Virus record (IMG/VR): IMGVR_UViG_3300044796_000078
Span: 1 to 22,406 of that record
Length of the DNA stretch: 22,406 nucleotides
Direction: 5' to 3' (one strand)
Origin: a virus
The notes below the pieces were generated by a model. The model was given only the letters and a program-made list of their open reading frames with translations, was not told where the DNA came from and did no database searches. Positions 2,919-15,156 of the stretch are shown here, one piece after another. Position numbers and translations under genes: made by a program. Each line of letters begins with the position of its first letter. Positions within the stretch are counted from its first letter, which is position 1.

Positions 2919-3137
2919 ATGAAACCTTGTTTCAATTTGACAGGTAATTATTTCGGGAGATGGTTGGTAATTCGACAGGTCGACCCTCCCGAATATTTAA
3001 ATTCACATAAAACACAAGCTCATTGGCTTTGTAGATGCGATTGTGGGTATGAATCTGTTTTAAGAGGGTCTAGCCTTCGATCGGGACGATCAAAGAGCTG
3101 TGGGTGTTCAACTGTTCGGAAGGGGGTTTTTCGGTAA
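2919..3137 (+). CDS. Stand-alone zinc-ribbon protein related to HNH endonuclease N-termini
   Basis: A 72-residue protein (from the ATG at 2919; a TTG lies at 2913) containing the same module as the one at 1531: NLTGNYFGRWLVIR, then WLCRCDCGYESVLRGSSLRS and SKSCGC, with five cysteines in CxCxC and CxC arrangements likely to bind zinc. In most phages the module precedes an HNH or AP2-type DNA-binding domain; here no HNH follows in any frame, so it is either truncated or a free-standing DNA-binding protein. Its ribosome binding site is weak. The last 68 bases overlap the end of the convergent glycosyltransferase gene. It is not a close copy of the module at 1531. Confidence 0.6.
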   Translation: MKPCFNLTGNYFGRWLVIRQVDPPEYLNSHKTQAHWLCRCDCGYESVLRGSSLRSGRSKSCGCSTVRKGVFR

Positions 3138-10913: not shown

Positions 10914-12445
10914 CTGAATTTTTTGACCTCTTCTTCTGGTACAGCTTCCATTAAAGAAGAAAATTCTTCATCTGAAAGCTCTTGGAATTCTGGAAATGCT
11001 TTAGCTTGTGACTTTCTATCACTAAATTTATTTACCATATCTATAACAGAGGTAATCATTTTCACGCGAGGGCCAAAATCTTTTTCTTTCTCCATCATGC
11101 CAATAACGGAATGGGCGAGCATTCTTCGGAAGTCATTTGAACTTACTTCCGTTTTGCCTTGTTTTCCTCCTTTAGGCGATGGATTAGGTCTTTGAATCTT
11201 TTGAATTCTTGGGTCGATAAGGGATATAGTGTTCCAGATGATATTTGGGGTGATGCCTTGGAATGTGTTAAAGACATTTTCTTGCTCCTCATCGCTTAAA
11301 AGATTATACTTTGAAGGGATTCCAACTAAAGACCTTAAGACATCTTCTGCAGTAGAAAGTTGGATTTTCGAATCTTCTTTCATCGGCAAAAGATCTTGGA
11401 AGGTTTTTCCCGAAACTAAGTGCTTAGCTGTTTTGTCGACGGCATCATCGATTATTCGGAATGTCTTAATTTCTTCGGGAGATAAATCTTTGTATTTCTG
11501 CTCATAAGTCACACTGGTTAAAGGTCTCATCTTCTTCTTAGGAAATAAAGCCTCATTAGTTTTTTCCGCAGTAGGAGACAATTTACCCTCTTTTGAAATG
11601 GATATGTCGAGTGATCTTTTTGGTTTTTCTTCAGTTGGTAATATTTCCTTAACAGTTGGTTGAATTGGTTCTTGAGCAGGCGCAGGGGCTTGAGGTAATC
11701 CTTGAGGTTGTTGCTGTGGTTGTTCTTGAGGAGTAGATTGAATATAATCGGCAATGATCTTTTCTATAGGAGCGCCAGCCATTCTTTCAGCTTCTTGGAC
11801 ATTCTTACCAAGTCTATTCCTTACGATACCGGCAATCAATTCGGGAGGGTTTTTCGACTTCATAGCGTCGACCATGTCTTTTTGTCCGATTCCTTGCAGG
11901 AAAGTACCAGCATCGAATTGAGTATTTTGAAGGGGGGCTTCGGGAATAGGTGTTTGCCCATGCTTTGCTTGTTCAACTGGCGCGCTTGCCTGCTGGGATA
12001 TACTTTGAGCGATATTAGGGCCGGGAGTTGGGCTAGGTGATGGTGCAATTCCCTGTGTAGAGGGAGATGGAGGCATTCCAGGAGTTGGTTGAGGCTGCGG
12101 GGAGGATTGACCTCCCATCATTGAGCCTAAAACTCCGGCGCCAGCTTGTAGGGCACGGCCTCCAAGAATGGCAGTACCTGCTAATGCGGCTCCTTTCCCA
12201 ATATTACTTTGAATATTTCTTTGCCTCTCAACATCCTTAGCTCTAGTCTTTTCATGTTCAGTTATCGGTTTATTGACTTCGTTTCGACCGCCAGCCAGAT
12301 ATTTAATTATCTTATCTGGGGAAAAACCTCTTGCTAAAGCTGTTTCAATCTGTTTTCTGGCATGAGGAAATTGCCTTAAGATAAATTCCATTATGTTTTC
12401 GTAGGAATAGCCTTGAGTCAATGCGCTCGTTATCTGATTCATCAT
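10910..12445 (-). CDS. Putative internal/ejection virion protein with Pro/Gln-rich linker
   Basis: 511 residues. The first 50 contain two copies of a helical motif with period 28: ITSALTQGYSYENI (5-18) and IETALARGFSPDKI (33-46). Residues ~83-110 are Gly/Ala-rich and hydrophobic (GKGAALAGTAILGGRALQAG), a possible membrane-active segment. A long Pro/Gln/Ser linker follows (SSPQPQPTPGMPPSPSTQG), then a helical, charged C-terminal region ending in an acidic cluster (EEEVKKFR). Such helical, low-complexity proteins after the tail hub are usually internal virion or DNA-ejection proteins, analogous in position to P22 gp7/gp20/gp16; this is inference. Start ATG at 12445 overlaps the previous stop (ATGA). 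Confidence 0.6.
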   Translation of the reverse strand: MMNQITSALTQGYSYENIMEFILRQFPHARKQIETALARGFSPDKIIKYLAGGRNEVNKPITEHEKTRAKDVERQRNIQSNIGKGAALAGTAILGGRALQAGAGVLGSMMGGQSSPQPQPTPGMPPSPSTQGIAPSPSPTPGPNIAQSISQQASAPVEQAKHGQTPIPEAPLQNTQFDAGTFLQGIGQKDMVDAMKSKNPPELIAGIVRNRLGKNVQEAERMAGAPIEKIIADYIQSTPQEQPQQQPQGLPQAPAPAQEPIQPTVKEILPTEEKPKRSLDISISKEGKLSPTAEKTNEALFPKKKMRPLTSVTYEQKYKDLSPEEIKTFRIIDDAVDKTAKHLVSGKTFQDLLPMKEDSKIQLSTAEDVLRSLVGIPSKYNLLSDEEQENVFNTFQGITPNIIWNTISLIDPRIQKIQRPNPSPKGGKQGKTEVSSNDFRRMLAHSVIGMMEKEKDFGPRVKMITSVIDMVNKFSDRKSQAKAFPEFQELSDEEFSSLMEAVPEEEVKKFR

Positions 12446-13878
12446 CTACCTACAATATTTAATTTATACAATATCTTATTCAAATTAGATAAAGGTGGTT
12501 CATTTAAATAATCGTTATATAAATTGTTTTGATCTGGATTCAATATAATTTTTTCATCCATAACCAAACTATTCATAGCATCTTTAAAAGCTCTCCAGTC
12601 ATAACCTTGATCTTCATATTGTTTTCTTAATAAAATCGGGTTTATGGATGGATTTTCTTTTTCACCACCCCATACAGATTTAATATTTGATTTAAGATCT
12701 TCTAATGATTTTTCTGAATAGGTCCTTTCAGTATTTGGATTATAATTTTTAACTCCTGCTACGGCAGCGGCAGCATTGGACTTATTATATGTAGGTTTCG
12801 GAATTGAATTGACTATGTTTTTTGTTCCTGGAGGAATTTCGCCGAAAATGATTCTTTCTCTTTCTTCAGGATAAAACCCTCCACCAGCCAATAAATCTCT
12901 AGACGTGTCATAAAGACCTAAGTTTATGAATGGCTGAACTAAACTTTTTGCGTCTGATTCCGCCTGTTTTAAATCGGATGTTTTACCTTCTGCCAATCTG
13001 GAAATTTTGTTTTGGATCCTTGGAGCTTGCAATTGCCTTTGAGCATTCGAATAGTCATCTGCAAACTTTACAGCGTCTTTTGTTAAGGTCCTTTTAATTT
13101 CAGCTTGACTTTTTCCTCTTCCGGCTACATCCTCACCCTTTTTTCTGAAGATAGCTTTTTGCTCAGCAGTAGCATTTTTAAATTGATCAACTAAAGCGGT
13201 TTCGGCTATTTCCCCAAAGGCTTCTTGTTCAGCAATTCTTTTTTGCCTTTCGGTCTCAATATTCTGATTGTAAGCCTTATTTTCTTCATTCTCTGTTCTT
13301 TTTATGTCAATTGCTTGTTCAAGCGTTCTGTCTGTTCTACCTTCTCCAATCCATTTTTTATAAAGACCTTCACCTTGTTGCAAAACTTCTTCGCCGCTCC
13401 AAATAGGTTTGATTTGGCCGCCCGTTGCTTCTTGGGGAAGATTCCCAGGTGCTTCATTAGGACCTATGTTTTTCGGAAAAAACTTACTCACTTGATCGCT
13501 AGGAGCATTTCCTTGCGCTCCAATTTGACCGCCTTGAAAAGATTGCTGGGGTTGTTGTGGAGTTTGTCCAGTCAACGGTACATTTGCGGCAGCTTCTCTA
13601 TTTCTTTGAGCCATTAAAGTTTCATAAAGTGGGCCTACATACCTTTCAGCCCCGGGTATTCCAGCTGTTGCGCTAATTAGGGAGGTCATAACATCGGTTG
13701 AACTAGCATCTTTAGGAAGGTTTTTTAATTCACCTAAAGCTTGCTGAAGTCTACCGCGCTGATATTCTTGTTGAACGGATGGTTTAAAGGATTCCTGAAA
13801 TCCTTGGGATAGACTTGATCCTAGAGTGTTTCCTAGGCTTGGGCGTGGGGCGCCTCGTTGGGGGATAGTGTAAACGAT
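12442..13878 (-). CDS. Putative internal/ejection virion protein, probably starting at a rare ATC codon
   Basis: The first ATG (13689) gives 415 residues but has no ribosome binding site. The frame stays open and protein-like for 63 more codons upstream (VYTIPQRGAPRPSLGNTLGS ... LQQALGELKNLPKDASSTDV) to an ATC at 13876-13878, which lies exactly five bases after a perfect AGGAGG. No ATG, GTG or TTG exists in this stretch, so initiation at ATC, or loss of an original ATG, is the best reading. The protein is Gln/Ala/Lys-rich and mostly helical, with a coiled-coil-like middle (KAYNQNIETERQKRIAEQEA) and no known domain. It sits between two similar proteins, suggesting an internal virion or ejection role. 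The conservative version of the gene is 12442-13689. Confidence 0.65.
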   Translation of the reverse strand: MVYTIPQRGAPRPSLGNTLGSSLSQGFQESFKPSVQQEYQRGRLQQALGELKNLPKDASSTDVMTSLISATAGIPGAERYVGPLYETLMAQRNREAAANVPLTGQTPQQPQQSFQGGQIGAQGNAPSDQVSKFFPKNIGPNEAPGNLPQEATGGQIKPIWSGEEVLQQGEGLYKKWIGEGRTDRTLEQAIDIKRTENEENKAYNQNIETERQKRIAEQEAFGEIAETALVDQFKNATAEQKAIFRKKGEDVAGRGKSQAEIKRTLTKDAVKFADDYSNAQRQLQAPRIQNKISRLAEGKTSDLKQAESDAKSLVQPFINLGLYDTSRDLLAGGGFYPEERERIIFGEIPPGTKNIVNSIPKPTYNKSNAAAAVAGVKNYNPNTERTYSEKSLEDLKSNIKSVWGGEKENPSINPILLRKQYEDQGYDWRAFKDAMNSLVMDEKIILNPDQNNLYNDYLNEPPLSNLNKILYKLNIVGR

Positions 13879-13883
13879 AAAAG

Positions 13884-13891
13884 CCTCCTAG
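13884..13891. repeat. 8-base direct repeat at the downstream edge of the HNH gene
   Basis: CCTCCTAG (CTAGGAGG on the transcribed strand) occurs here and again at 14407-14414. The two copies bracket the HNH coding region, and each acts as the Shine-Dalgarno of the gene after it. Eight bases of ribosome-binding sequence can match by chance. Confidence 0.5.
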
Positions 13892-14403
13892 ATGTGTTTC
13901 CAATTTCTTCTATTGATAACATCTACTATAGTATAATATTTAACGCCATATATATTTGCCAATTCCTTCATGGAAATTCCTGTTTTATGTAATTTCCTAA
14001 TTTTTAGCACTTTTTTTTCATCCAATTTAGAAAGTGGATGTTCTTTCCCTACATTTATATGATATTCACCATTATGTCGTTGTCGTATTTCATCAATTTT
14101 ATTTTCTTTGTAGGTCCCAAGTTTCATGTGGTCAGGATTACAACAAGCTGGCTGATAATCCCCAGGACATTTATGTAAAACAATTAAACCATCTGGAATT
14201 TCACCTTTAAATGCAAGCCAAGCTGCTCTATGAGTATTTAAATGAAATCTTTCTGTTCCATTCCAATAGACAATTTTACCATAACCCTGTTTGTGTTTTC
14301 CAAGATTCCAAATCCAACACCCATTTTCATTAATAGTTACGTTTTTCTTAATTCTTTCTGTTATAATTTTCTTAAAATGTTCAACGTCTTCTATGATTTT
14401 CAT
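13888..14403 (-). CDS. HNH homing-type endonuclease inserted in the virion gene cluster
   Basis: 171 residues from the ATG at 14403 (MKIIEDVEHFKKIITERIKK), which has AGGAGG three bases upstream. HNH_3-type core: CWIWNLGKHKQGYGKIVY, then THRAAWLAFKGEIPDG, LIVLHKCPGDYQPACCNPDH and MKLGTYKEN, with the catalytic His and Cys/His metal set. The C-terminal HTH-like segment (LSKLDEKKVLKIRKLHKTGI ... NRRNWKHI) is the same kind as that of the HNH at 1844, so the two are related. It has its own promoter (14426-14454), lies between genes that otherwise overlap or nearly touch, and its TAG stop overlaps the next gene's AGGAGG. It is a mobile, selfish gene by family and setting. No sign of damage is seen here, unlike the copy at 1531-2191. 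Confidence 0.85.
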   Translation of the reverse strand: MKIIEDVEHFKKIITERIKKNVTINENGCWIWNLGKHKQGYGKIVYWNGTERFHLNTHRAAWLAFKGEIPDGLIVLHKCPGDYQPACCNPDHMKLGTYKENKIDEIRQRHNGEYHINVGKEHPLSKLDEKKVLKIRKLHKTGISMKELANIYGVKYYTIVDVINRRNWKHI

Positions 14404-14406
14404 AAT

Positions 14407-14414
14407 CCTCCTAG
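14407..14414. repeat. 8-base direct repeat at the upstream edge of the HNH gene
   Basis: Same CCTCCTAG as at 13884-13891. On the transcribed strand it forms the Shine-Dalgarno CTAGGAGG of the HNH gene. It may be the original ribosome binding site of the interrupted downstream gene, with the other copy carried in or duplicated. Confidence 0.5.
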
Positions 14415-14425
14415 GGTATATGCAA

Positions 14426-14454
14426 ATCATATATGGTTTACTTTTTTAAGTCAA
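14426..14454 (-). promoter_or_regulatory. Sigma70-type promoter of the HNH gene
   Basis: On the minus strand TTGACT (14449-14454) and TATGAT (14426-14431) are separated by exactly 17 bases, matching consensus at 5 of 6 positions in each box. It lies in the short gap before the HNH gene, so that gene can be expressed apart from the late operon. Predicted start of the mRNA is near 14419. Confidence 0.7.
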
Positions 14455-14469
14455 ATTACACCATACCCC

Positions 14470-15156
14470 TTAGGTTAAATAGTTTGGTAATTGACCGAAT
14501 GAACCTTGATAGCCACCGCCACCACCACCGCCAACATCAAAGGCATTCGATTGACCACCGCTGCCTTTATTCATTCCCTGCACGAAGTTGCTTAATCCTG
14601 AATATGCTGCGCCCCCTGCTGGACCACCAAACGCATTGGCTGCGGCATTTAGTCCAGTGTCTAGAATCTTACCAGCAAAGCTGAGTTGTCCTTCTTGACC
14701 AGGGTCGTAAGCATTTTCAAATGGTCTTGCATTAAGACTTGTGTTTGTGATCTGATTGTATTGATTCAGAAGATCATTGATCGATTGACGGCGATATTGT
14801 TCTTTCATCTGGGCCAGTTGAGTTTGAAGATTAGCTCCAGCTGCTCCTAATGACTGACCAAATCCAGAAGTCATTAACCCAGATCCCATTGCATTAGCTC
14901 CACCAAATCTTTCGGCTATTTGTGGGATAGTTTGTTGCTCAAATTGTTGTAAATAGGGTTTTTCGAAGTTTTTATAGACATCAGATTGAGGATTAAGATA
15001 ATCCGACAATAGCCCCATGGCATCTTTATATCCGCCTTGAGCTAATTGATTCTGCTGTTTATTTACGTTTGAAAGAGTTTTCTCCTGACCTCGATTATAA
15101 TTTGAAACTTTCTGCCAGCTCGGTTCTCTTCCTTCTTCCCAAAATGGATTTGCCAT
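14470..15156 (-). CDS. Gln/Gly-rich putative internal virion protein
   Basis: 228 residues from the ATG at 15156 (MANPFWEEGREPSWQKVSNY), chosen because AAAGGGGT is just upstream; a GTG at 15177 is a weaker alternative. The helical core (FEKPYLQQFEQQTIPQIAER, then FGGANAMGSGLMTSGFGQSL and AQMKEQYRRQSINDLLNQY) resembles a pattern I associate with uncharacterised proteins of many tailed phages next to tail hub and ejection genes. The C-terminus is Gly/Ala-rich and ends in a run of seven glycines (GGGGGGGYQGSFGQLPNYL). Likely part of the virion interior or neck. No named domain. It is the first of three similar low-complexity genes. Confidence 0.65.
   Translation of the reverse strand: MANPFWEEGREPSWQKVSNYNRGQEKTLSNVNKQQNQLAQGGYKDAMGLLSDYLNPQSDVYKNFEKPYLQQFEQQTIPQIAERFGGANAMGSGLMTSGFGQSLGAAGANLQTQLAQMKEQYRRQSINDLLNQYNQITNTSLNARPFENAYDPGQEGQLSFAGKILDTGLNAAANAFGGPAGGAAYSGLSNFVQGMNKGSGGQSNAFDVGGGGGGGYQGSFGQLPNYLT

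Follow-up and report, generated by a model that had tools for sequence, protein, structure and literature searches.

A gene for an HNH_3-type homing endonuclease very probably entered the window (the whole 22,406-nt viral stretch analyzed here) as a free-standing insertion on the start codon of a conserved late gene, carrying its own ribosome-binding site. The late-gene N-terminus was placed by alignment with relatives at an ATC, and we assign a probability of about one half to the reading that this ATC is the true base and would be used as the start codon, which is an inference slightly favored over a base error. This anatomy is firm and represents a variation on a known type of element; the start apparently rebuilt as ATC sets the window apart. 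The features discussed are listed in Table 1.

Table 1. Features at and around the late-gene junction of the window.
Feature	Position	Strand	Description
Conserved late gene	12442..13878	-	478 codons counted from the ATC; predicted protein mainly helical
Inverted repeat, 12/14	arms 13860..13873 (right) and 14456-14469	-	spans the insert
ATG	13687..13689	-	earliest ATG in frame; does not align with the starts of homologues; without ribosome-binding site
ATC	13876..13878	-	at the place of the late gene's start codon, from sequence and alignment with relatives' ATG
TAGGAGG	13884..13890	-	putative ribosome-binding site including the HNH stop TAG; anti-SD -10.2 kcal/mol
HNH_3 and helix-turn-helix homing endonuclease gene (predicted)	13888..14403	-	171 aa; between two adjacent late genes
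TAGGAGG	14407..14413	-	putative ribosome-binding site of the HNH gene
GTAAACCATA	14432..14441	-	perfect reverse complement of TATGGTTTAC, the native start as deduced (joined ends)
ATG GTG	14459..14464	-	apparent native codons 1-2 of the late gene, stranded; followed by TAA 14458-14456
AAGGGG	14466..14471	-	apparent native ribosome-binding site; overlaps the upstream gene's TAA 14472-14470
Upstream late gene (MANPFW...)	14470..15156	-	constant neighbor of the late gene in relatives

The minus-strand sequence across the junction (13895-13861) is ACATC-TAG-GAGG-CTTTT-ATC-GTT-TAC-ACT-ATC-CCC. The AGGAGG at 13889-13884 is followed by the five-base spacer CTTTT (13883-13879) and the ATC (13878-13876), and the HNH stop TAG (13890-13888) overlaps the AGGAGG in frame with the ATC. 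Between the ATC and the ATG at 13689 the frame stays open for 63 codons with no ATG, GTG or TTG, and the only one-base neighbors of ATG within this extension are the ATC triplets at codons 1 and 5. Anti-SD pairing amounted to -10.2 kcal/mol at the ATC site vs 0.0 kcal/mol at ATG 13689; among the scored gene starts only g8094 (-12.7) surpassed the ATC site, and the HNH gene tied with it. The original prediction had drawn attention to this arrangement, namely an AGGAGG five bases before an ATC, an open 63-codon frame, a downstream ATG lacking a ribosome-binding site and an HNH stop in phase with the late gene, and on recalculation every coordinate was exact and each of these features was recovered. 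An exact-pattern scan of viral contigs for the junction did not find a second copy.

From its position, the late-gene product is probably a virion or ejection protein. Searches of PHROGs and Pfam with the late protein gave no match, its predicted structure (pLDDT 74) had no significant match in the PDB and matched uncharacterized phage proteins among viral structures, and a PDB profile search returned weak hits, the best of which (E 5e-4) was the short chain Bot.0671.2. Scans with single proteins, those of the late gene and the 753-aa gene, yielded no close relatives, and none were found by tblastn of the late gene against isolate phages. Relatives, comprising many contigs of the same phage group, were reached via a partial major head protein, the upstream gene and alignments, and the order upstream gene - late gene was constant in their contigs. 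The late gene starts with ATG in 72 of 79 non-identical homologous junctions, mostly as ATG-GTN ("MVQ..."), usually -1 to +12 nt from the stop of the upstream gene, and valine is the second residue in 62 of the 75 junctions with a called start. The other seven junctions comprise one true TTG start (L123), two miscalled starts for which the script chose another codon (TTG in L107; GTG in L143, which is the HNH start) and four with other inserted DNA or no called start. The TTG of the L123 homologue, near position 1684, lies behind a GGAGG and is the only clear non-ATG start besides that of the window.

The N-termini of relatives, for example MVQILPPK (L006, L008) or MVTILPPKPNAG (L051, 44% identity overall), were aligned to the window protein, which reads I-V-Y-T-I-P from the ATC. 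In these alignments the ATC falls on the ATG of the relatives, and V2 does not vary in alignments A3 and A4 and hardly varies in A5. Identity between the 63-residue extension and the aligned N-termini of 20 relatives is 24-42%, about the level seen over the remainder of the protein; in L006, L008 and L125 the extension is the better conserved part. Judged by sequence comparison, this homology is more than chance, in line with the earlier impression that the 63 codons encode ordinary protein. With the ATC aligned to the relatives' ATG and V2 kept, these alignments put the late-gene N-terminus at the ATC and rule out 13689 as the ancestral start. A search of the extension against homologues had been proposed originally, and homologues beginning at 13689 had been named as the outcome that would speak against an ATC start; the opposite was found, as their N-termini begin exactly at the ATC position. 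Of the claim that the gene begins at the ATC, the position has thus been upheld, and the use of ATC as the initiating codon is what we infer.

The protein encoded between the two late genes contains an HNH_3 domain (PF13392, E 9e-9) together with an HTH_7 match below the cut-off, and its 17 PHROG matches are mostly HNH endonucleases. In more than 70 relatives the junction is empty of HNH genes, and in nearly all relatives the two late genes directly adjoin; a scan for close HNH relatives returned one distant locus. Behind the stop of the upstream gene the window reads CCTAAGGGGT-ATG-GTG-TAA (14474-14456), in the same place as the starts of the relatives and matching their ATG-GTN, and an ATGGT this near the upstream stop occurred in 2.4% of shuffles. 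The stretch AAGGGGT-ATG-GTG-TAA at 14471-14456 looks like the native late-gene start, stranded when the HNH gene entered. This remnant, which would explain how the ATG was lost, was absent from the original prediction, and its persistence upstream of the HNH gene argues that the latter is a free-standing insertion at the start codon.

HNH_3 genes were also found at the late-gene junction of L142, L143 and L144, with a rebuilt ATG in each case; ATC is seen in the window only. In L142, TAAGGAGTAAAAA-ATG-GTG-AAA... is stranded ahead of an HNH_3 gene of an architecture unlike that of the window, which is followed by AAGAGG-TAA-AT-ATG. The related HNH_3 gene of L143 (36%) borrows the old ribosome-binding site (TAAGGAATATA-GTG) and ends in ACATGTATAATGCCA-GTGCAAATAATT, giving a new ATG before what had been codon 2; L125, a relative with an empty junction, reads AAAAAATGGTTCAAATAATT there. 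L144 carries an HNH_3 gene adjoined by a tRNA-Gly (TCC; 2224-2294). At other places in these phages, related HNH genes frequently terminate right at the ATG of the next gene, and behind one of them in L017, at another gene, TAG-GAG-AAA-ATT-ATG shares its layout with TAG-GAG-GCT-TTT-ATC of the window. The presence of HNH_3 genes in the window and in L142-L144 indicates that the late-gene start codon is a repeated landing site at which the inserts rebuild the start.

Other DNA was observed at the same junction in L033, L034 (16596-16823) and L036, namely a non-coding insert of ~225 bp that is GC-rich, rich in stem-loops and without an Rfam match; it presumably resembles the guide-RNA-like ends of IS200/IS605-type elements. 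In L066, L083, L088 and L131 the HNH leaders contain short hairpins (AATCTCC...GGAG type) that would mask the HNH ribosome-binding site and can be likened to the hairpins controlling T4 homing endonucleases.

In the proposed sequence of events, the HNH homing gene would first have entered this conserved, podovirus-like late gene at its start codon. AAGGGG-ATG-GTG, the native signal, would have been left upstream, where the TAA would cut reading after two codons, and the insert would have brought the strong TAGGAGG that overlaps its stop. Through this overlap, ribosomes finishing the HNH protein would be placed at the next start, and either these ribosomes, ending at the TAG in TAGGAGG, or ribosomes binding afresh may initiate at ATC 13878-13876. 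Initiation with fMet-tRNA at ATC would proceed at lowered efficiency, aided by the strong site and the terminating ribosomes. Initiation at ATC has a precedent in E. coli, where one ATC uTIS was identified by N-terminomics (PMC13245402). The mismatch of AUC with the initiator anticodon at the third base counts against an ATC start; since IF3 disfavors weak third-base pairs at the start codon (PMC10158994), the output of the late gene should be low. The strength of the ribosome-binding site, the stranded start of L142 as a parallel and the layout of L017 speak for this scheme, in which use of the ATC as a start is plausible rather than proven.

A competing explanation of some weight, though a tentative one, is that the normal start is ATG and that the ATC arose by a single G-to-C assembly or base-calling error, or is a damaging mutation or rare null allele in the sampled population. 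A one-base error would look identical, the other starts rebuilt at this junction, those of L142, L143 and L144, are all ATG, L017 also has ATG, and the relatives are under strong purifying pressure for ATG (72 ATG, 1 TTG). Moreover, the window has a second HNH gene (1531-2191), apparently split by a frameshift where L135 has a single ORF, so that errors or decay may be present in the contig. Against this, the rest of the 478-codon frame is intact, no breaks were seen in other late genes, and a single substitution would a priori seldom fall precisely on the third start-codon base. The leader sequence GTAAACCATA matches the ATG version and not the ATC, as expected if there was once an ATG here or if the base is an error. 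Silencing of the late gene, leaving the phage defective or reliant on co-infecting relatives, would be in keeping with ATC as a poor start and the extension offering no better one; the intact frame and conservation of the gene in relatives make it unlikely. Translation from ATG 13689 into a 415-residue protein is less probable still: this is the first canonical in-frame start, yet it lacks a ribosome-binding site and would drop 63 residues conserved in the aligned relatives. Equally hard to credit is readthrough of the HNH stop, which had been raised initially as formally possible and would make the late protein an HNH fusion. The matching of the two frames, on which it is based, is a one-in-three chance, and the TAG here belongs to the ribosome-binding site; TAG terminates genes at 718 and 15202, as noted before, and also at 3070. 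The HNH genes of L142 and L143 end with TAA at this junction and translation restarts at ATG, the L017 layout likewise has an ATG, and an HNH fusion was seen in no relative.

The insert (~580 nt) might alternatively be spliced out or bypassed, joining the stranded ATG-GT to TTAC and restoring MVYTIP. The stranded ATG-GTG would then still be the real start, with GTAAACCATA guiding a very small, unrecognized splicing or bypass element. As an internal guide would, GTAAACCATA in the leader complements the joined TATGGTTTAC (0.1% of insert shuffles), and a 12/14 inverted repeat connects both ends of the insert (0.17% of shuffles), both being noticed after the fact; in addition, a stop follows the GTG and the landing codon would be GTT, reminiscent of the logic of T4 gene 60 (PMC5009743). 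The leader fold is not unusual (z -1.0), nor is that of the whole insert (z -0.3). An Rfam search of the insert, read up to E 10, returned neither a group I nor a group II intron; the SPO1 HNH intron used as positive control was recovered at E 5e-4 with 25.6 bits, short of the gathering score, which makes the search only modestly sensitive. Just ~70 nt lie outside the HNH gene, and under the group I rule (U before, G at the end) the sole U/G join, ATGGT+TTTAC, breaks the frame. A bypass would have to skip ~583 nt after a two-residue peptide, compared with 50 nt in T4, and the inserts of L142, L143 and L144 are plainly free-standing. Excision or bypass is accordingly very improbable, and the same holds for a guiding role of GTAAACCATA; the free-standing insertion followed by a start at the ATC position is preferred.

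Near-cognate ATT starts are found in the bacterial genes infC and pcnB. These starts and the ATC site of E. coli (PMC13245402) likewise combine an AUN codon with ideal spacing and a strong ribosome-binding site, whereas the ATC of the window would lie in a phage late gene and would have been created by insertion of a mobile element. Free-standing HNH homing endonucleases of phages, such as the T4 mob genes or those near lysA in Cluster J mycobacteriophages (PMC3706429; reviewed in PMC2988022), resemble the window in their precise intergenic insertion in some genomes and absence in close relatives and in being co-directional with their neighbors; they differ in that the window insertion lies on the start codon itself, with the native ATG apparently stranded and the start rebuilt with ATC. 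In T4 gene 39/60 (PMC5009743) a homing endonuclease splits a gene and translation must be restored, as in the window; T4 uses a 50-nt bypass, while the window would use a new ribosome-binding site with no hop, the gap being far too long. Phage group I introns with HNH genes (SPO1 DNA polymerase; tail and capsid genes, PMC3706429) share with the window an HNH-type gene, a late-gene site and a short sequence complementary to the joined flanks, but in the window no core was found, the ends depart from the splice-site rules and new start signals are supplied.

If the ATC is real, it would be a natural case in which a selfish gene swaps the start codon of a virion gene for a near-cognate one; it would also offer a clean test of how far a phage tolerates start-codon damage under a strong, stop-coupled ribosome-binding site. 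Should the base be an error, HNH_3 genes have nevertheless been inserted repeatedly at this one start codon, each rebuilding the start, and these show how free-standing homing genes can enter tightly packed operons while the neighbor survives.

Two further observations concern other parts of the window. In the second HNH gene, on the plus strand, the apparent frameshift lies near 1776; a zinc-type N-terminal ORF (1531-1782) and an HNH_3 ORF (1793-2191) are in different frames, in L135 a single ORF (about 371-1004) covers both, and the TGA of the window gene overlaps the ATG of the next (2188). A small protein encoded on the minus strand at 137-337 has a weak, below-cut-off match to YdaS (E 0.002).
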